Of a DNA stretch of 32,260 nt, positions 23,763 through 32,260 are shown in pieces. The notes under the pieces are model-generated. The model was given only the letters and a program-made list of their open reading frames with translations. It did no database searches and was not told the DNA's origin. The position numbers were made by a program, and so were the translations under genes. Source of the stretch: an uncultured delta proteobacterium (lineage in GTDB: Bacteria; Myxococcota_A; Polyangia; Polyangiales; Polyangiaceae); assembly GCA_903870415.1 (NCBI GenBank), contig CAIQDA010000424.1, positions 1-32,260 on the forward strand, read 5' to 3'. Numbering within the stretch: position 1 is the first letter of the stretch; the number at the start of each line of letters is the position of its first letter.

Positions 23763-24991
23763 GGGCGCGGAGTCCTTTCGAAAAGTTTGGCGAGCTCGCT
23801 CACGATGACCGCCGCGACCTCGTCTTTGGAGCCCGAGATCGGCCCGACCGCGTCGTCTCGCGAGGCAAAAACCAAGTACATCGTGTTTGAATCGCCTTCG
23901 AGCGCCCGACTTGCTTCGTTCGCCACGATGACGTCGCACTTCTTCGCGTCGACCTTACCGCGCGCGTAGGCCGTGACTGCGGCCTCGTCGCCGGTTTCGA
24001 GCGCGAAGCCAACGAGCACTGGAGACGGCCCCGTGCGTCGCGCCCCGATGGCCGCGAGGATGTCCGGGTTGCGCACAAGTGCGAGCGACGCGCCCTCGCC
24101 CTGCTTCTTGATCTTCGTGTCAGAGAACGAGGCCGGTCGATAATCGGCCACCGCCGCAGCCATGATGAGCGCGTCGGCACCACGAAGCTCCGGACCGAGA
24201 ATTCGCTCAAGTTCCGTTTGCAGTTCAAGGGCGCTACGCACGTTGACCCGCTCGACGTTCGCCGGGGTCGCACGGTTCACCGGTCCTGCCACGAGGGTGA
24301 CACGAGCCCCCTTCCTCGCGGCCTGAGCTGCGATGGCGAAGCCCATTTTTCCCGACGAACGGTTCGTGAGAAAGCGCACCGGGTCGAGATCTTCCACGGT
24401 GGGTCCGGCGCTCACGAGCACATGACGCCCTGCAAGCTCCTGCGACGAACCGAGCATCTCCGCGACCGCTTCAACGACGGCCTCGGGGTCGATCATCCGG
24501 CCCACGCCCTCGTCACCGCTGGCGACCTGACCGTGGATTGGCCCGAGAAAAGCCACGCCGCGCGACCGAAGCAGCGCCACCGAAGCTTGCGTAGCCGCGT
24601 GCGCCCACATGCGGGGGTGCATCGCAGGCGCAACGAAAACGGGGCACGACACGCACAGCGCGAGGGCTCCGAGCAAGTCCTCGGCGCGACCTTGGGCGAA
24701 CACGGCAAGGCGATCGGCGGTCGCGGGAACCACGACGAGCGCATCGGCTCCGCGCGCGAGCGTCACGTGGAGCTCACCCTCGATGGACGAATCCCACATG
24801 TCCGCGTGCACGGGCTCACCCGTGATGCCAGAGAGCGTCGTCGGACCAAGGAATTTCCTGGCCGACGCGGTCATCACCGGGCGTACGCGCGCCCCGCGTT
24901 TCAAGAACAAACGCGCGACCTCCACGGCCTTGTAGGCGGCGATGCTGCCGGTCACCGCGAGGATGATGGTCTTCCCGTCGAGGCGTTTCAT
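23759..24991 (-). CDS. coaBC: bifunctional phosphopantothenoylcysteine synthetase/decarboxylase CoaBC
   Basis: 410 residues, ATG at 24991 overlapping the vanW-like stop as ATGA. The protein makes 4'-phosphopantetheine for coenzyme A in two steps: CoaB joins cysteine to phosphopantothenate (CTP-dependent) and CoaC, an FMN enzyme, decarboxylates the product. CoaC covers about 1-185: VTGSIAAYKA, catalytic His75, VPATADRLA, then PAMHPRMW where PxMNxxMW is usual (His replaces Asn), and ASGDEGVGRM where ACGD occurs in E. coli (Ser replaces Cys). CoaB covers about 187-405: SAGPTVEDLDPVRFLTNRSSGKMG, described by its key NRSSGKMG, then AAAVADYRP and the lysines of DTKIKK. Length and order are normal. 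The substitutions may be tolerated, as actinobacterial CoaBC also uses PAMH as I recall. Confidence 0.92.
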   Translation of the reverse strand: MKRLDGKTIILAVTGSIAAYKAVEVARLFLKRGARVRPVMTASARKFLGPTTLSGITGEPVHADMWDSSIEGELHVTLARGADALVVVPATADRLAVFAQGRAEDLLGALALCVSCPVFVAPAMHPRMWAHAATQASVALLRSRGVAFLGPIHGQVASGDEGVGRMIDPEAVVEAVAEMLGSSQELAGRHVLVSAGPTVEDLDPVRFLTNRSSGKMGFAIAAQAARKGARVTLVAGPVNRATPANVERVNVRSALELQTELERILGPELRGADALIMAAAVADYRPASFSDTKIKKQGEGASLALVRNPDILAAIGARRTGPSPVLVGFALETGDEAAVTAYARGKVDAKKCDVIVANEASRALEGDSNTMYLVFASRDDAVGPISGSKDEVAAVIVSELAKLFERTPRP

Positions 24992-26610
24992 CGTTTGCCC
25001 TTCCCGCTCTTTGTCGCAGCGCCCTTCTTGGGCTCGGGCGTGGAGACTACACCCTTCTTGTGGCGCCGCTCGAACGCGCCCTCCTTCGCGCTCCAGCCCT
25101 TCAAGCCGTAGCGACCGGCAACGCGCACCTCGGTGGTGCCGCCTCCGCGCTCGGGCTCGGTGACATTTGGACTGTGAATATCCGGGCCTTGCGTCACGCT
25201 CAAATAATCGTCGGCGACGTATTCGGGGTGTTCGTCGTCGTGAAGAGACGACTCCGGGACGCCGGTCCCTGTGCCCACGCGCCAAAGCTGACTGGTCGGC
25301 GGGTACACGTCCGAGAGCCGCTCGCGGTACGCAAACGCGCCTTCGCGCACGATGCGAAAGCGCGTGACGTTGAATCCAGGCACGCCGCGCTGCGAGAGAA
25401 TGCGTTCGCCTTTCGGCAGTCGGGGCTCGGGCACGTCGCGCTCATCGAAGCGCGACGCGACGTCGATCTTTCGAACGAAGGTGACCGCTTGCGATCGCTT
25501 CGGACCCAGGATTTCCGCGCGCACGAGGCCCCCTCGAACGCTCTCGACGAGCACCACGGGGAACGTGTTGGGGTTGCGAAGCCGCAGCGTCAGCGTGGGG
25601 TAGGCCACCGCCGCATCAAGGCCCATCTTGATGTAGAAACTCGGCCGCGTGTGCGGGTGCCTTTCGATAACGTCGAGCCCCGCGAAGAAAGCTGCACCAT
25701 GCAAGGTTCCAGCAACCTGACACGTGCCGCCACCGACGCCGTCGACAAGTTCACCGGACGCGATCACCGGCGCAACCTTGTATCCAAACGCCTCGGTACG
25801 CGGGCCGACAACTTCGTTGAAGTCGAAGGTTTCGCCAGGGAAGAGCACAGTTCCATCGAAGCGTGACGCGGCGAGCTTCAGGTTGAACGACCGCGCTTCG
25901 TGCTTCGCGTCGCTGTTGTAGTGCGTGTCGAAGTACCCGAGAACCTCATCAAAACGAACCCCGCTCAGGTCTTCGGCTCGATGCGAAGCAGGCACCTCTT
26001 CAACGACGGCGGCGACCTCGCTTCGACCTTCGCGCACCGCGCCAAGGACAGCTTCAATCGTTCGGAAGACGTCGAGACGAATGCCCGCCACGTCCTTCTT
26101 GACCTGCCCGCTCTTCGTGTCGATGCGTGCGCTTACCGCGCGGCGATCGGCTGCATTTTTCGCCTCGATAAGCCTTGCTTCAAGGAGCTCGGGACGCAGC
26201 GTGACCGGTGCCTCGAGCGCGAGACCGCTCGCAAGCAGCGACTTGCGAAGCTCGCTCGACGCGTTTGAGAGCTCCAGCGCGAGAGACGCGACGCGTGACT
26301 CGTCGACCGCAAAACCGAAACGCTCGGGCACGATCGACAGCGCGTCTGCGCCAGGCAACGTGACCCGAAGCGGCCTCGCAAGGAGCGTGCGCGTGCGTGC
26401 GTCGAGCGATGCGGCCGAGTCTCCACCGGAACCACCCACCGGCTCTGACCCCAGCAAAATGTCTGCCGAAGTGGACTCCGCTCCCTCGCTCGCGGGCCTA
26501 GCGGTCGCACGAGGACGAGCGGTCCACAGCAAGCCTAGCGACCCTGCGGCCGACAGCGCCGCCGCGGCAAAGAGCGCGAGCGACGAACGCGGAAGCGAGC
26601 GAAGGTTCAT
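24988..26610 (-). CDS. VanW-family protein with N-terminal membrane anchor and PG_binding_4-like region
   Basis: 540 residues, ATG at 26610 overlapping the MAPEG stop as ATGA. A single hydrophobic segment at about 10-30 acts as signal or anchor. A Pro/Ser/Gly-rich stretch and a putative peptidoglycan-binding (PG_binding_4-like) region at about 75-230 follow. The VanW domain lies at about 236-360 with its usual landmarks: LFPGETFDFNEVVGPRT, FGYKVAPVI, GGGTCQVAGTL (Cys297), ERHPHTRPSFY and DAAV. The C-terminal 180 residues end in a basic Lys/Gly-rich tail. VanW accompanies some vancomycin-resistance clusters but its activity is unknown; free-standing copies are widespread. The protein is likely in the periplasm. 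The link to CoaBC is by gene coupling only. Confidence 0.88.
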   Translation of the reverse strand: MNLRSLPRSSLALFAAAALSAAGSLGLLWTARPRATARPASEGAESTSADILLGSEPVGGSGGDSAASLDARTRTLLARPLRVTLPGADALSIVPERFGFAVDESRVASLALELSNASSELRKSLLASGLALEAPVTLRPELLEARLIEAKNAADRRAVSARIDTKSGQVKKDVAGIRLDVFRTIEAVLGAVREGRSEVAAVVEEVPASHRAEDLSGVRFDEVLGYFDTHYNSDAKHEARSFNLKLAASRFDGTVLFPGETFDFNEVVGPRTEAFGYKVAPVIASGELVDGVGGGTCQVAGTLHGAAFFAGLDVIERHPHTRPSFYIKMGLDAAVAYPTLTLRLRNPNTFPVVLVESVRGGLVRAEILGPKRSQAVTFVRKIDVASRFDERDVPEPRLPKGERILSQRGVPGFNVTRFRIVREGAFAYRERLSDVYPPTSQLWRVGTGTGVPESSLHDDEHPEYVADDYLSVTQGPDIHSPNVTEPERGGGTTEVRVAGRYGLKGWSAKEGAFERRHKKGVVSTPEPKKGAATKSGKGKR

Positions 26611-27008
26611 GCCGCGTGTGCGAGGGCCTGACCAAAGATGCCGAGCGTCGCCGCGAAGCCCACCGTCCAGACGATGGATCGCACCGTCCGCGCGTCCGCA
26701 AGGTACGCCGCCACGTAGGCGATGCGGGCCACGAGGTGCGTGAGGGCGAGCCCTACAACGAGCGGAGACGAGCTGATTCCCACGCCTTGCGCGAGCGCGA
26801 TGGCGGCAGCAAACGCCATGAACGCTTCGAAGCCATTCTCGTGGGCGCCCTTCGCCCGGAGCGCGAGGCCCGTGAGCCGCTGCTGCGCAACACGCGGCGT
26901 GCTGTTGTCGTAGCCGCCTTCGAGCTTCGCTTGCCCCATCGCCATCGGTACGCGCAGGGCATAGACGAGAAGCAACGTGAAGGGGACGCAGGCAACGGCG
27001 AGGTTCAT
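26607..27008 (-). CDS. MAPEG-family membrane protein
   Basis: 133 residues, ATG at 27008, with four predicted transmembrane helices (about 3-22, 60-77, 80-100, 108-130). The conserved MAPEG signature is visible as GAHENGFEAF (Glu57, Asn58, Glu61) after RAKGA, with the upstream Arg-rich loop. MAPEG proteins include microsomal glutathione transferases and eicosanoid enzymes; bacterial members of this short type are mostly uncharacterised. It is the first of four ATGA-linked genes. A short repeat GTCTG...CAGAC (27023-27042) lies in the 76-bp gap upstream and could mark a control site, though it is too short to be sure. Confidence 0.85.
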   Translation of the reverse strand: MNLAVACVPFTLLLVYALRVPMAMGQAKLEGGYDNSTPRVAQQRLTGLALRAKGAHENGFEAFMAFAAAIALAQGVGISSSPLVVGLALTHLVARIAYVAAYLADARTVRSIVWTVGFAATLGIFGQALAHAA

Positions 27009-27084: not shown

Positions 27085-28353
27085 CTACGCGGCAGCGGCT
27101 TCGTTTGTGATTTTCCTACTCGAACTCTCGTCCTTCACCACAGCCACAAGAGGTGCCAGGCGACGCACGAACTCGGGCAACGGCAAGCTGACGAGCATCG
27201 CAAACGCCGCAAGCTTGGGCATGCCGAGAAGCTCCCCGCTCGGGCCCGACGAAAGAAACGTCGCGCCAACCACGGCACCGAGGGCAGACCCCATGTGCTG
27301 CACCGCGCTCTGCAGCGACTGGAACCCCGCGCGTTCATGGGGCGCAGGCACGCGCGACGCGAGAGCCGACGACGCCACGTTGCGAATCGACTGCGCGCCC
27401 ATCATCAGAATGAAGACGATCGCCGGATGCACGAGCGTGTGACCGGCCGCAAACCCGAGCGCCATGGCGAGCAGGAAAAACCCAGTGCCTACGAACGCCA
27501 CCGGCGGCGAGCCGAAGCGGTCGGCCGCACGACCTGCCACGCGAAGCACGAAGAAGGTTGGCACGCCGCCCGCGAGATACAGGAGCCCAAGTTGCGCGCG
27601 CGGAAACCCGCAGTTGCCCTGCAAGTAGGCACTCACGTTCGGGATGACCGAAAACCCCGCCAGCGTGATGGACGCGGTCGACGCCACCGCAAGCAACGTC
27701 GCCGGGCGCGCGAGGAGCGCAAGTGGACTCACCGGCTGCGCATGATGCATGAGGTGTGCACGCATTGGCTTCAGGCGAAGAATGACGCCCGCAACGACGA
27801 CAGCGCCAAGCGCTGCGACAGCAAATAGAGGGAATCTCCAGCCGAATTGGCGCCCAAGTTCGAGACCGATCGGCACGCCGAGAACGCTTGCGATCGCAAA
27901 CGCTCCCATCACCGCGCCCAAGGCTTTGCCCCGACGTTCAACGGGCACCGCGTCGGTCACGATGGAGAGGCCGATGGCCGTCGCAGGACCGCCGCACGCG
28001 CCCGCAATGACCCGCGCGAGAAGAAGCGAGCCGAGGCTCGTCGCGAACCCCGCCGCGACCGTGCTCAACACGAGACCCACCATGGTCACCGCGAGTGCGC
28101 TGCGGCGATCGAACCTGTCGAGGAAGCGCGAGGCTGCAATTCCAGCCACCGCAGCCGACGCCGTGTACGAACCCGCCACGAGGCCGAGGCGCGACGCATC
28201 GATCCCGAGCTCGCCCGCGTAGTCGGGCCCGAGCGGCAAGATGATCATGAAGTCGAGGATGTTCACGAACTGCGCGAGGCCGATGAGGAAGACGACTTCG
28301 CGCTCCGAGACGCTGCGGTTCAAAGAAGCAACCATGGCCGTTCGATGCTCCAT
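27085..28353 (-). CDS. MFS transporter, drug-efflux (AraJ/DHA1-like) type
   Basis: 422 residues from the ATG at 28353 (another ATG at 28335 is possible; the frame is open further upstream across the divergent P450 start but is not hydrophobic there). About 12 hydrophobic helices are visible. Between TM2 and TM3 the loop RFLDRFDRRSA is a degenerate motif A. In TM5 GVPIGLELGRQFGWRFPLF fits motif C, typical of proton-driven exporters. Members expel drugs, sugars or arabinose-like compounds; the substrate here is unknown. It is divergent from a cytochrome P450 gene, 80 bp apart, so it may export the P450 pathway product or protect against its substrate. It is followed by MAPEG after 76 bp. Confidence 0.87.
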   Translation of the reverse strand: MEHRTAMVASLNRSVSEREVVFLIGLAQFVNILDFMIILPLGPDYAGELGIDASRLGLVAGSYTASAAVAGIAASRFLDRFDRRSALAVTMVGLVLSTVAAGFATSLGSLLLARVIAGACGGPATAIGLSIVTDAVPVERRGKALGAVMGAFAIASVLGVPIGLELGRQFGWRFPLFAVAALGAVVVAGVILRLKPMRAHLMHHAQPVSPLALLARPATLLAVASTASITLAGFSVIPNVSAYLQGNCGFPRAQLGLLYLAGGVPTFFVLRVAGRAADRFGSPPVAFVGTGFFLLAMALGFAAGHTLVHPAIVFILMMGAQSIRNVASSALASRVPAPHERAGFQSLQSAVQHMGSALGAVVGATFLSSGPSGELLGMPKLAAFAMLVSLPLPEFVRRLAPLVAVVKDESSSRKITNEAAAA

Positions 28354-28398: not shown

Positions 28399-28434
28399 TG
28401 CGCACGACAGCGCTTCGCGATAGTCTCGTGCGCA
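28399..28434. promoter_or_regulatory. perfect 9-bp inverted repeat between MFS and P450 genes
   Basis: TGCGCACGA (28399-28407) and TCGTGCGCA (28426-28434) are exact inverted repeats with an 18-bp spacer, in the 80-bp region shared by the divergent exporter and P450 genes. The right arm runs into the first base of the P450 ATG (28434). It could be an operator that senses a ligand for both genes, or an mRNA hairpin that hides the P450 start. No Shine-Dalgarno sequence is seen before this ATG. Confidence 0.4.
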
Positions 28435-29780
28435 TGAGCACGATCGCGCCCGGACCCCGTGGCCATTTCCTTCTTGGGAGCCTGCCGGACCTTCGCCGTG
28501 ACCCCGCACGTTTTCTGAAGGAATCGCAGGCGACCTTCGGCGACGTGGTCCGCTTTTCCTTCGGCGGCAGCGTGGCTCACCTCGTGTCGTCTCCTTCGGG
28601 TATTCGCCACGTCCTTCAAGCGAATGCCAAAAACTATACGAAAAATACACCGGGTATTCAGAAGCTCAAAGCCATCCTCGGTGAAGGGCTCCTGACCTCC
28701 GACGGCGAGTTCTGGCTTCGTCAGCGACGCATCGCTCAGCCTGCATTTCACCGGGACAGGCTCCAAGGCTTCGCGGACCTTATTGACAAGCATGCAGAAG
28801 CCCTCTGCGTTCGCTGGCGCGTCGAGGCGCTGGCAGGCCGCCCGGTCGATGCGCATCGCGAGATGATGGCGCTCACCCTCACCATTGTCGGGGAAGCGCT
28901 TTTCGGCGCCGACGTTGCCGCCGATGCGCCCGCCGTTGCCCACGCGCTCGATGAGATCTTGCTCGTGCAAGATGCACGCTTTACGCGGGCCATCCCCCTT
29001 CCCGTCTGGCTTCCGGTGAGGGAAAATAGGCGTTTTTCCGCTGCGAAGGCCGCCCTCGACGACGTGTGCATGCGGATGATCCGAGGACGACGCGGCGCCA
29101 CCGAAGGCCGGTCCGACCTTCTCTCGATGCTCATGGACGCGCGCGATCCGGAGACGGGCCAAGGCATGAGCGACGCGCAGCTTCGCGACGAGGTCGTCAC
29201 CACGTTTGTCGCCGGTCATGAAACCACCGCCAACGCGCTCACCTACGCGCTCTACTTGCTTGGCGCACACGCCCCTGCGCAAGAGGAACTCGGCGAGGCG
29301 GCGCGTCTCGAATTTCCCTCAGGCATTCGTTGCCGTGAGGTTTTTCGCTGGGCACCCGCCGAACGCGTCGTGAACGAAGCCTTGCGCCTTTACCCGCCCG
29401 GTTGGCTCTTTGCGCGCTCACCGACGGAGGATGACGAGGTCGATGGCTTCGCGATTCCGAAGGGCAGTTTCGTCTTCATCTCAGCCTGGGTCGTGCATCG
29501 CAAAGCCGACTTGTGGACGAACCCCGACGCTTTCGAGCCGGGTCGCTTTGCCGCTTCGCCGCCGGACCGCTTCGCCTTCTTTCCGTACAGCGGAGGCCCT
29601 CGTCAGTGCATCGGTGCGGCCTTCGCCGACATGGAGATGCATGCGATCGTTGCGCGTATCGCCCAGTCTTTTTCCTGGCGAAGCATTGGCCCAGTGCCTC
29701 CCATCGATCCGAAAGTGACGCTTCGACCGAAGGGTGGAGTCCCGCTCTCGCTCAGCTTGCGCGTAGCGCCTTCGCCATGA
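28434..29780 (+). CDS. cytochrome P450
   Basis: 448 residues from the ATG at 28434 (a GTG at 28428 would add two residues). All landmark motifs of a heme-thiolate monooxygenase are present. There is the C-helix WLRQRR, the I-helix oxygen-binding AGHETT (about 260-265), the K-helix ExxR in NEALR (315-318), and the heme loop FFPYSGGPRQCIGAAF with axial Cys392. The sequence around AWVVHRKADLWTNPDAFEPGRF is the usual PERF region. There is no N-terminal membrane anchor, so it is a soluble class I enzyme needing separate ferredoxin and reductase, which are not in the window. The general look (LRLYPPGW, full-length heme loop with extra Gly-Gly) is that of fatty-acid or xenobiotic type P450s. The last 29 bp overlap the 3' end of the opposite-strand acyltransferase gene. 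Confidence 0.93.
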   Translation: MSTIAPGPRGHFLLGSLPDLRRDPARFLKESQATFGDVVRFSFGGSVAHLVSSPSGIRHVLQANAKNYTKNTPGIQKLKAILGEGLLTSDGEFWLRQRRIAQPAFHRDRLQGFADLIDKHAEALCVRWRVEALAGRPVDAHREMMALTLTIVGEALFGADVAADAPAVAHALDEILLVQDARFTRAIPLPVWLPVRENRRFSAAKAALDDVCMRMIRGRRGATEGRSDLLSMLMDARDPETGQGMSDAQLRDEVVTTFVAGHETTANALTYALYLLGAHAPAQEELGEAARLEFPSGIRCREVFRWAPAERVVNEALRLYPPGWLFARSPTEDDEVDGFAIPKGSFVFISAWVVHRKADLWTNPDAFEPGRFAASPPDRFAFFPYSGGPRQCIGAAFADMEMHAIVARIAQSFSWRSIGPVPPIDPKVTLRPKGGVPLSLSLRVAPSP

Positions 29781-30546
29781 CCGATGGGTCTTCCATCAGC
29801 ACGCGAAGCCCCTCGGTGCCGCGCGCCATGTCCGCGCCGTCGAGGACGTAGTGGTCCGCGAGGAAGAGCAGATGCAAGACCCAGCGAGGGACGACGGCGC
29901 CGTTGACCACGCGCGGAAGCTCACGAAGCGTCCCCGGAAGAAAAGCGCATCCCGTATTACCGAAGGTGTGCCCGCCGACGGGACCGTGGTCTTTTGCAAG
30001 GTTTGAGCTCACCCCATACGTTCCAAAGTGCTGGATGTAGAAGTGCGGGTCGCTGCGGGCCTTGTACGAGAACCAGCGCAGGAGCAGCAGCGGGGCCTTC
30101 TTGATGCGCTCGATGGCCGCGAGCTGCGGCAAGGTGTCGAGGGGCGCGGTCTTCGCCTCGCGGAGAGCCTCGCCCACCTGGCGAAGCGTCATCTTGTCGA
30201 TGTGGCGCAAGAGCAGCGGCAGCAAGATGTCCTCACCCGCTTCGCCGCGGCGACCCACAACCGTCGTGCAACTGACCTCTTCGAAGTCGACCTCGAAGCG
30301 GCGAAACCACCCGTGAAAACAGTGACGATTCAGCCGTGGCTGCGCGCCAATGAGCTGCCCGGTGCACCAGAGCAAGTAGCTGATGAGCGTGACCGGAAAG
30401 CCTTCACGCTTGGCCGCCTCGATGAGTGGCAACACGTCGGTGACGTCGAGCTCGTGCTCCGTGGACACGACGAGGTGATGGTCGCGCGCACGCGTCAGCT
30501 GATCGCCGATGAGTTCGCGGTTCTTCGAGAAGGGTGTAATCTTCAT
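29752..30546 (-). CDS. stand-alone 2-oxoacid dehydrogenase E2-type (CAT-fold) acyltransferase
   Basis: 264 residues, ATG at 30546 overlapping the GH3 stop as ATGA. The start is fixed by this overlap; upstream in-frame sequence is Arg-rich and belongs to the GH3 coding region. The whole protein matches only the catalytic domain of E2 components: TPFSKNRELIGDQLTRAR at the start, the central VSSNLAKDHGP-type segment, and near the C-terminus ADHYVLDGADMAR. There His232 and Asp236-Gly237 match the DHRxxDG active site. There is no lipoyl or peripheral-subunit-binding domain and no E1/E3 gene, so it is unlikely to serve a normal dehydrogenase complex. A chloramphenicol-acetyltransferase-like acyl transfer to or from CoA is the likely chemistry. 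Coupling to GH3 suggests a shared acyl substrate. Confidence 0.82.
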   Translation of the reverse strand: MKITPFSKNRELIGDQLTRARDHHLVVSTEHELDVTDVLPLIEAAKREGFPVTLISYLLWCTGQLIGAQPRLNRHCFHGWFRRFEVDFEEVSCTTVVGRRGEAGEDILLPLLLRHIDKMTLRQVGEALREAKTAPLDTLPQLAAIERIKKAPLLLLRWFSYKARSDPHFYIQHFGTYGVSSNLAKDHGPVGGHTFGNTGCAFLPGTLRELPRVVNGAVVPRWVLHLLFLADHYVLDGADMARGTEGLRVLMEDPSVMAKALRAS

Positions 30547-32260
30547 GGAGTTTTCGTCACCTTCATCCGGCGACTTGAGCTTCGGCGCTTGGCGCGATCG
30601 AGCACGTGCACCACGGACTCTTGGCTCAAAGCGTCCCAACCCGCACGAAACACAGGCCATTTGTATTGCCCATCGCGCTTGCCTCCGGCGATGTCGGCGC
30701 GACGCTGAGCCTCGGCCCAGCCGCGTTCCATCACACACAAGCGCGGAGGCAAGAGGCGCTTGGACTTGCGCTTCGAACGGTATTCGTCGTTCTGCGCTCC
30801 GAGCGCTTCATCGAAAGCGTCGAGGAATCGGCCCAAGTCGTCGTCGTCGGGCGTTTGGCCGTCGACCTCGACGAGGAGGTCGTAGCGAAGCCCTGGCGCA
30901 TCGGGGACGAGACGAAACTGCACAAGCTCGGTCCCGAGAACTCCACGCACCGCCGCCTCTGCCGCGAGCGCGTGGTTGACGTGCAATTTCTCGCCCGTGA
31001 TGTTCACCATGTCGCGACCCTTGCGCACGAACGCGAGGATGGGGGCGGTACCGACGAAGCCCTCGCAGCGCACGATGTCGTTCATGTCGTAGCGATAGAG
31101 GCCGCTTCGGTGCGTGACGACGAGGTCGTACTCGTGCCCCGTTTCGAGCTCGTGACCGAGGAGCGTCGAAGGCTGATCGGATTCCATTTCGGCCACCGGA
31201 ATGAACTCGAAGAGGTTTGCGTAACCCGTCGCAACGCCCGCCGCGGTGCCGTCTTCAAGCGGCACAGTGAAGGTCCCCTCGCTCGCGCGCAAGCCCAGGT
31301 CGCGCAAGACGGGCTTCTCGCCAATGTAGCGCCGGAGCCTGTGAATCACCTGGCCGGCGCTTCCTCCGAGCCAACAGCTCACGAGCGCGAGATTCGGCCA
31401 CGCATCTTCGAGGCGGAGCGATCCGCGAAGAGCCGCGGCGCGTTCGAGTTCCTTCGCACGCTTCGGGTTCGGCGCGAGTTTGCGTTCCACCGCGGCGATT
31501 TGGGAACGCCATGCACCGACGTCGCCGGAACCTATGCCCACGGAGCCATCGTGAATCGCCCGAAGCAGACGCTCCGCGTGGTCGACCGCGAGCTCGCCGA
31601 GTTTCACGAGGGTCGACGCATTGGGAACGACCGCAAGGCTCACGTTGGCTTCGACCGAGAGGCGCAATGCGAGCCAATAACGCAGGTCATAGTCACCCAC
31701 GGTCATCACGCCGTAGGGAATGGCGTAGTTGCGCCGCGCCGCAGAAGGAACGCGCTGATAGGTCAGGCCGCTCATGCTCCCGATGGGAAGGCCGCTGCGC
31801 GCGAAGCCTTCGACCGAAGGACTCACGATGCTCACGATCTTTTTCGAAAGCATGCGTTTGTGATCGCGAGACGCTCGGTGGATCCACAGGCGCATGATCG
31901 CCGCGAGCTCTTCCTTCCACGCCTCGGTGACCGGGATGAGCTTTGGCTGACCGGTGGTGCCGCTCGTGCTCGTGAACATGAACGGCTCGTCGTGCGTGAG
32001 CACCTGCTTTTCGCCGTTCAAAAGCCGGTCGATCCACGGGCGATAGTCTTCGTATTCCCGAATCGGTACCTGCGTACGCCAAGCGTCTAGGTCTTTGATT
32101 TTCCCGAAGCCGTGCGCGCGCCCGAACGCGGTTTTCGCATTGGTGCGGCAGAGCTCGTCGAGAAGCGCGAGTTGCACACCGCGGTAGTCGCTCACGCTTT
32201 GCGCGAACGGACGCTCGGCCACGATTCCGCGCGCGTGAACAATCGCGCGCGCGAGGAGAC
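30543..32260 (-). CDS. GH3-family acyl-acid amido synthetase, 5' partial
   Basis: The frame stays open to the window edge. A GTG at 32222 could serve, but the preceding residues (LLARAIVHARG) look like the usual GH3 N-terminus, so the gene is shown as running out of the window. At least 572 residues are visible. Residue numbers are from the GTG: TAFGRAHGF (31-39), the P-loop adenylation motif STSGTTGQPKLIP (85-97), the ATP-binding and strand region LASEGTF-like (RASEGTF), the YRYDMNDIV motif and the GEKLH motif. The C-terminus ends in Arg/Ser-rich residues. Family knowledge: plant GH3 enzymes adenylate carboxylic acids such as auxin or jasmonate and join them to amino acids; bacterial members are little studied. 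An ATGA overlap couples it to the E2-like gene. The family is firm; substrate unknown. Confidence 0.88.
   Translation of the reverse strand, partial: LLARAIVHARGIVAERPFAQSVSDYRGVQLALLDELCRTNAKTAFGRAHGFGKIKDLDAWRTQVPIREYEDYRPWIDRLLNGEKQVLTHDEPFMFTSTSGTTGQPKLIPVTEAWKEELAAIMRLWIHRASRDHKRMLSKKIVSIVSPSVEGFARSGLPIGSMSGLTYQRVPSAARRNYAIPYGVMTVGDYDLRYWLALRLSVEANVSLAVVPNASTLVKLGELAVDHAERLLRAIHDGSVGIGSGDVGAWRSQIAAVERKLAPNPKRAKELERAAALRGSLRLEDAWPNLALVSCWLGGSAGQVIHRLRRYIGEKPVLRDLGLRASEGTFTVPLEDGTAAGVATGYANLFEFIPVAEMESDQPSTLLGHELETGHEYDLVVTHRSGLYRYDMNDIVRCEGFVGTAPILAFVRKGRDMVNITGEKLHVNHALAAEAAVRGVLGTELVQFRLVPDAPGLRYDLLVEVDGQTPDDDDLGRFLDAFDEALGAQNDEYRSKRKSKRLLPPRLCVMERGWAEAQRRADIAGGKRDGQYKWPVFRAGWDALSQESVVHVLDRAKRRSSSRRMKVTKTP

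Follow-up and report, generated by a model that had tools for sequence, protein, structure and literature searches.

A GH3 amide synthetase and a lone E2-type acyltransferase in an operon that may make and export an N-acyl-amino-acid lipid

The closest described relative of the locus analysed here is the OlsH/OlsI system of Singulisphaera, reported in 2025, in which the GH3 protein OlsH makes N-acyl ornithine and an acyltransferase encoded in the same operon, OlsI, O-acylates it (PMC12493201). Our subject is a bacterial GH3 gene and an overlapping gene for a lone E2-type acyltransferase (here called E2-like), which lie at the end of a 32,260-bp stretch of DNA (the window). The window is the whole of contig C424 (CAIQDA010000424.1) from a metagenome-assembled genome (MAG; G000, 4.7 Mb, 98% complete) of an uncultured member of the Polyangiaceae. 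A previous reading of this sequence alone held that known GH3 enzymes need no partner to make acyl-amino acid amides, which is overstated, given that OlsH has a partner acyltransferase in its operon. We propose, with a probability of about one half, that these two genes form the 3' half of an operon centred on GH3, whose product would be an exported lipid of the N-acyl-amino-acid type, the chemistry being that suggested by the neighbouring genes.

The GH3/E2-like pair compared with OlsH/OlsI and with E2 enzymes

The relevant features of the window are as follows.

30543-32258, minus strand: GH3 acyl-adenylating amide synthetase, 571 amino acids (aa); the true start lies a few codons past the contig end
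29752-30546, minus strand: lone E2-type acyltransferase of the CAT fold (264 aa), lacking a lipoyl domain; catalytic motif DHYVLDG
30543-30546, minus strand: ATGA overlap of the GH3 stop and the E2-like start, read directly from the sequence; candidate translational coupling
28434-29780, plus strand: cytochrome P450 (PF00067, 250 bits), convergent with the E2-like gene
27085-28335, minus strand: major facilitator superfamily (MFS) exporter (PF07690, 141 bits), divergent from the P450

Both open reading frames (ORFs) of the pair, their overlap and the lack of a lipoyl domain are as the sequence-only reading had described them. All three domains of the GH3 protein score above their curated cut-offs (PF03321: 211 bits, GH3_M: 73.7, GH3_C: 53.1). 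The enzyme looks active, as judged from its ATP motifs STSGTTGQPK, RASEGTF and LYRYDMND in the places of the expected SSGTT, SE and Y-R-Y-D; these motifs were counted in the relatives too. On the NCBIfam model of OlsH (NF052613) it reaches 100.3 bits, below the cut-off of 620, and its relatives reach 82–129 bits. No true OlsH was found in the 14 genomes searched, and the GH3 protein of a Singulisphaera MAG (L140), tried as an OlsH candidate, was rejected by its score with the same model. Likewise, no α/β-hydrolase O-acyltransferase of the OlsI type is present among the genes of the loci from the window's own genus, where the E2-like gene is found instead. The two systems share a bacterial GH3 enzyme with a cluster-encoded acyltransferase, and in both an N-acyl amino acid intermediate and an O-acylated lipid are expected. 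They differ in the GH3 protein, which scores far too low for the OlsH equivalog (100 vs 620 bits), in the fold of the partner (E2/CAT vs α/β hydrolase), and in the additional presence here of a heme-oxygenase-like diiron enzyme, an enolase-superfamily enzyme, a P450, an ICMT-family methyltransferase and an exporter. Judged by the score, the missing OlsI-type gene and the other partners, OlsH/OlsI is the nearest known system, but the cluster is not a member of it.

The whole E2-like protein corresponds to PF00198 (41.1 bits, cut-off 23), and Pfam searches found neither a lipoyl nor an E3-binding domain in its 264 aa. The alignment shows that DHxxxDG (DHYVLDG, residues 231–237) is kept in nine E2-like relatives and that the Ser of GTYGxS is also kept across the E2-like loci. 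When its AlphaFold2 model was compared with the PDB by Foldseek, every top match was an E2 catalytic core, despite a mean pLDDT of only 62. Thus, the fold, DHxxxDG and the conserved Ser are shared with the catalytic domain of 2-oxoacid dehydrogenase E2 proteins, from which the E2-like protein differs in having no lipoyl or E3-binding domain, in its low score (only 41 bits) and in its location in a biosynthetic operon. The window genome encodes three other, complete E2s, each with lipoyl and E3-binding domains, which sets the lone form apart: by its domains it is a PF00198 relative and not a component of a complex, and with those three at hand it need not serve a lipoyl-bearing complex encoded elsewhere, a possibility that the sequence-only reading had raised against its own proposal. 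Another E2-like neighbour of a GH3 gene (L135) has DQRVMDA in place of the motif, i.e. without the catalytic His, and was left out of the counts.

The upstream half of the operon and its distribution across phyla

The contig ends inside the start of the GH3 gene, hence the upstream half of the operon is absent from the window. In the congeneric genome G002 the GH3 gene is preceded by an enolase-superfamily gene (MR_MLE; here MLE) and by a PF14518 heme-oxygenase-like diiron gene (here HDO), and tblastn found both likewise upstream in the second congener, G001. The last genes on contig C253 of the window genome itself are HDO, MLE and the start of GH3 (its first 104 residues). The end of C253 overlaps window positions 31950–32260 over ~310 nt with 98% identity, and the six differences are all synonymous. 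We read them as strain variation, the heterogeneity having probably split the operon across two contigs in the MAG; the idea that the C253 fragment represents a second GH3 paralogue was rejected, as it is the missing start of the window GH3 with strain-level differences. In the window genome, G002 and G001 alike, HDO and MLE, MLE and GH3, and GH3 and E2-like overlap by 4 bases each (the last of these overlaps in loci L067 and L066 of G001 and G002, respectively). All three genomes of the genus keep the GH3/E2-like pair intact, with an ICMT-family methyltransferase gene divergent from HDO and orthologues of the P450 and MFS genes following (3/3 for each). HDO, MLE and ICMT, the core partners that define the pathway, lie past the contig end and were missed by the sequence-only reading.

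HDO exceeds the PF14518 cut-off (50.8 vs 28.9 bits) and has the metal ligands E/H/E/HxxxDxxH; its two metal-ligand patterns are present in 25 of 25 sequences. The model (pLDDT 91.5) has a heme-oxygenase-like fold, with matches to CADD (Z 18.8, root mean square deviation 3.0 over 203 residues), HrmI (16.8), FlcD (15.4) and UndA (15.1). The fold (Z 15–19) and the metal-ligand patterns are common to HDO and these four enzymes, from which it differs in forming a subgroup fused to, or overlapping with, an enolase-superfamily gene. MLE (PF13378, 127 bits) has the catalytic KxK, the D/E/D metal triad and the second Lys, as aligned for the proteins of its own genus and of genome G011, and shares them with the dipeptide epimerases, N-acylamino acid racemases and muconate cycloisomerases of its subgroup. 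Its nearest solved structures are dipeptide epimerases. Unlike the known members, it falls below every curated NCBIfam cut-off tested for these three activities (88/500, 107/400 for DgcA, and 132/335 bits, the last and best score being with muconate cycloisomerase) and is linked to GH3. Judged by these ligand patterns and catalytic residues, both HDO and MLE look active.

The association extends far beyond Myxococcota. When GTDB genomes were scanned once with the GH3 alignment, 80 loci emerged; 59 of them contain MLE, which in 48 of the 80 lies directly upstream of GH3 on the same strand. HDO is present in 21 of the 80, always with MLE, and in seven (L082, L086, L087, L090, L094, L098 and L121) the two form one ORF of ~620 aa. 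The HDO loci come from about ten phyla in all (Myxococcota, Rokubacteria, Actinomycetota, Cyanobacteriota, Omnitrophota, Tanganyikabacteria, Fibrobacterota, Chloroflexota, Binatota and Thermodesulfobacteriota). In a quick maximum-likelihood tree of GH3, of which only the ingroup groupings were used since deep outgroups gave long branches, they fall into one clade of 34 (SH-aLRT 99%); the adjacent clade, of 31, usually pairs MLE with an α/β hydrolase. Pairwise distances of MLE and GH3 are correlated (r 0.63, n=53, 0/2000 permutations as high, shared species history not being corrected for).

Further genes recur around these loci. A small (~160 aa) membrane protein with no Pfam match adjoins GH3 or HDO in about ten loci of the HDO clade (e.g. 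L087 10542–11036, L090 9314–9829, L121 10572–11105, L075 4641–5282). A 440-aa family, also without a Pfam match, lies beside MLE-GH3-ICMT in Omnitrophota, Lentisphaerota, Planctomycetota, Verrucomicrobiota and Spirochaetota (L085 6403–7791, L092, L097, L091, L095, L083, L084, L076). Genes of Cache-domain Ser/Thr protein kinases, possibly indicating regulation, adjoin the hydrolase/MLE/GH3 set in Verrucomicrobiota, Planctomycetota and Desulfobacterota (L103, L104, L106, L108, L111–L116, L126). Cultured isolates that carry this simpler set are Neiella marina, Neiella litorisoli and Desulfosediminicola flagellatus. In G011 (L049 2341–12000, the same as L089) HDO-MLE-GH3 adjoins two ketosynthase genes, an ApeP-like dehydratase, a Trp-halogenase-like gene and an SDR, a neighbourhood that resembles an aryl-polyene-type cluster.

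The E2-like gene in Myxococcota

Going by the GTDB loci, the E2-like partner had seemed restricted to the genus of the window genome. This was overturned by profile searches of one fixed set of 282 Myxococcota genomes, in which HDO is matched in five (G000, G002, G161, G180 and G285). GH3 proteins with more than 630 bits on the operon profile occur in exactly these five, and all five also have an E2-like protein with more than 170 bits. The hypergeometric p-value for this co-occurrence is 4e-9 when genomes are counted, 3e-7 with genera and 1e-4 with families as the unit, the counts and the number of families having been entered by hand. The E2-like gene adjoins HDO in G161 and G180, followed by P450, an MMPL exporter and ICMT; G285 has a single cluster of E2-like, ICMT, P450, MMPL, MLE and HDO; and G303 keeps E2-like, ICMT, P450 and MMPL together. 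The P450 orthologue adjoins E2-like in six loci (L066, L067, L200, L201, L202 and L206). The position of the MFS gene is taken in other families by an MMPL/RND-type exporter (MMPL in L200, L201, L202 and L206); the window MFS exporter is MxcK-like (235 bits, cut-off 525) and has orthologues in G001 and G002. Three further genomes (G070, G119 and G304) carry E2-like ~30 bp, 44 bp and 1.7 kb, respectively, from a much diverged, shorter GH3 gene, within clusters with modular polyketide synthase (PKS) and acyl-CoA dehydrogenase genes.

Related E2-like genes near GH3 or HDO in distant Myxococcota, together with the intact pair in the three congeneric genomes, argue that the pairing is not a matter of chance. 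Its presence in related genomes, proposed as a check in the sequence-only reading, is thus borne out, as is the tie to the P450 and the exporter, both of which are part of the same conserved locus. A dedicated biosynthesis-and-export pathway is therefore the best reading of the pair.

Three loci from Myxococcota genomes of one family (L203 3–9895, L204 7224–15917 and L205 19–10206) contain PKS (in L203 and L205 with an AMP-ligase), acyl-CoA dehydrogenase, E2-like and a short divergent GH3; they are a second, unrelated setting of the E2/GH3 pair. An Imm5-domain immunity-like protein adjoins HDO in G161 (L200 826–2154). Downstream of the exporter, the window encodes a VanW/G5 protein and MAPEG proteins (24988–27008), and MAPEG is also present in G001. 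No MAPEG gene was called in G002, so the MAPEG and VanW-like genes were set aside as likely background. In the window, the P450 gene overlaps the 3' end of the E2-like gene by 29 bp.

Proposed product and competing explanations

Genes neighbouring the loci in different phyla suggest a lipid whose carboxylate is free. They include ICMT (12 of the 80 GH3 loci and the Myxococcota clusters), the unrelated carboxyl methyltransferase LCM beside HDO in L089 (and, by the same sequence cluster, in L081), a fusion protein of L073 that takes the position of HDO and consists of the small (~160 aa) membrane protein and a fatty-acid hydroxylase, Aas-like transporter-acyltransferase-ligase proteins (L084, L087, L090 and L121), and DUF3419, which we take to be of the BtaA type, with MMPL in L080. 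Gene linkage, domains and motifs were observed directly; the substrates we infer. The probable function of the cluster is to couple a fatty acid to an amino acid and to decorate and export the conjugate; the most likely product, to judge from the neighbouring genes, is an oxygenated, O-acylated, perhaps methyl-esterified N-acyl-amino-acid lipid. In the proposed scheme GH3 would use ATP to adenylate a fatty or polyketide acid and couple it to the amine of an amino acid, a chemistry established for the family. All later steps are put forward as hypotheses. MLE, with its catalytic residues in place, would remove the α-proton of the N-acyl amino acid carboxylate and epimerise or rearrange the molecule; HDO and P450 would oxygenate it to provide a hydroxyl; the E2-like CAT-fold enzyme would add a second acyl group to this hydroxyl, probably from acyl-CoA, in a role comparable to that of OlsI or OlsA in ornithine-lipid synthesis; the ICMT-type enzyme would methylate the carboxylate; and the MFS or MMPL transporter would export the product. 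Slightly more tentative is the wider proposal of a previously undescribed, phylum-crossing pathway for an exported N-acyl-amino-acid lipid class, in which GH3 is combined with MLE and, in one large clade, with the diiron HDO (often fused to MLE), and for which a CAT-fold E2 derivative would be the myxobacterial acyltransferase.

Several observations speak against a lipid pathway of this kind. The nearest fold to HDO is that of CADD, a p-aminobenzoate synthase and not a lipid enzyme, and HDOs of known function mostly use free amino acids or small acids. In G161 and G180 HDO/E2 and MLE/GH3 are on separate contigs. The E2-like gene was seen only in Myxococcota, which makes it accessory rather than core, and the model of its product is low in confidence. 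Finally, almost all loci come from MAGs, with genes called by a simple codon-usage script.

Might the acid be aromatic or alicyclic instead, built by HDO and MLE, joined to an amino acid by GH3 and decorated by E2-like and P450? This would combine CADD-like chemistry with that of o-succinylbenzoate synthase or a cycloisomerase, and GH3 would act as plant GH3.12 does on benzoates. The similarity of HDO to CADD (Z 18.8), the preference of MLE for the muconate cycloisomerase model, albeit under its cut-off, and the best PDB match of GH3, the benzoate-glutamate ligase GH3.12 (only marginally above jasmonate and auxin GH3s), all agree with it, as does the use of small acids by HDOs of known function and by GH3 enzymes of plants. 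We nevertheless consider it unlikely: the recurrent neighbours are of the lipid type (fatty-acid hydroxylase, Aas-like acyltransferase, MMPL, ICMT, BtaA-like), and the N-terminal part of a 20-sequence HDO alignment has no invariant Tyr where the self-sacrificed Tyr of CADD would be expected, a comparison made at the level of the sequence alignment.

Ornithine-lipid synthesis proper, with GH3 making a lyso-ornithine lipid and E2-like replacing OlsI as the O-acyltransferase, follows the same logic as the OlsH/OlsI precedent, and the neighbouring GH3 clade pairs with α/β hydrolases, i.e. the fold of OlsI. It is clearly improbable, however, given the scores of 82–129 bits with the OlsH model (cut-off 620), which none of the 14 genomes searched passes, and given that the published account of the OlsH operon names OlsG and OlsI but no HDO, MLE or P450. 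We are similarly doubtful of a role for E2-like at a step preceding GH3, in which it would provide or edit the acyl substrate of GH3 by thioester transfer or deacylation instead of acylating the GH3 product; the established use of CoA thioesters by CAT-fold enzymes and the position of E2-like between the PKS/acyl-CoA dehydrogenase and GH3 genes in G070, G119 and G304 would suit such a role, but GH3 enzymes use free acids and ATP and need no thioester. It is very improbable that E2-like lies here by chance or belongs to a 2-oxoacid dehydrogenase complex encoded at another place in the genome: lone E2-like proteins of other subfamilies do occur in the taxonomic order of the window genome and all top fold matches are E2 cores, but chance is largely refuted by the co-occurrence with HDO and a close GH3 and by the position next to GH3 in clusters of an unrelated kind, and the genome encodes three complete E2s, which do have the lipoyl and E3-binding domains.

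The HDO-MLE-GH3 core of the proposed lipid pathway is apparently undescribed. A word search of a 2026 review of HDOs (PMC13108848) found no mention of enolase, racemase or GH3, so the HDO-enolase link goes unmentioned there; nor did we find a published description of GH3 with enolase, HDO or mandelate racemase, which is weak evidence, as most subscription papers and preprints were outside the search. In the literature searched, bacterial GH3 proteins are widespread, and essentially one, OlsH, has a known function. The HDO-MLE-GH3 unit and the HDO-MLE fusions offer a shared, testable physiological context for three large enzyme families, and the unit predicts a new class of lipid amides. The cluster also shows the catalytic core of an E2 recruited into a biosynthetic operon.

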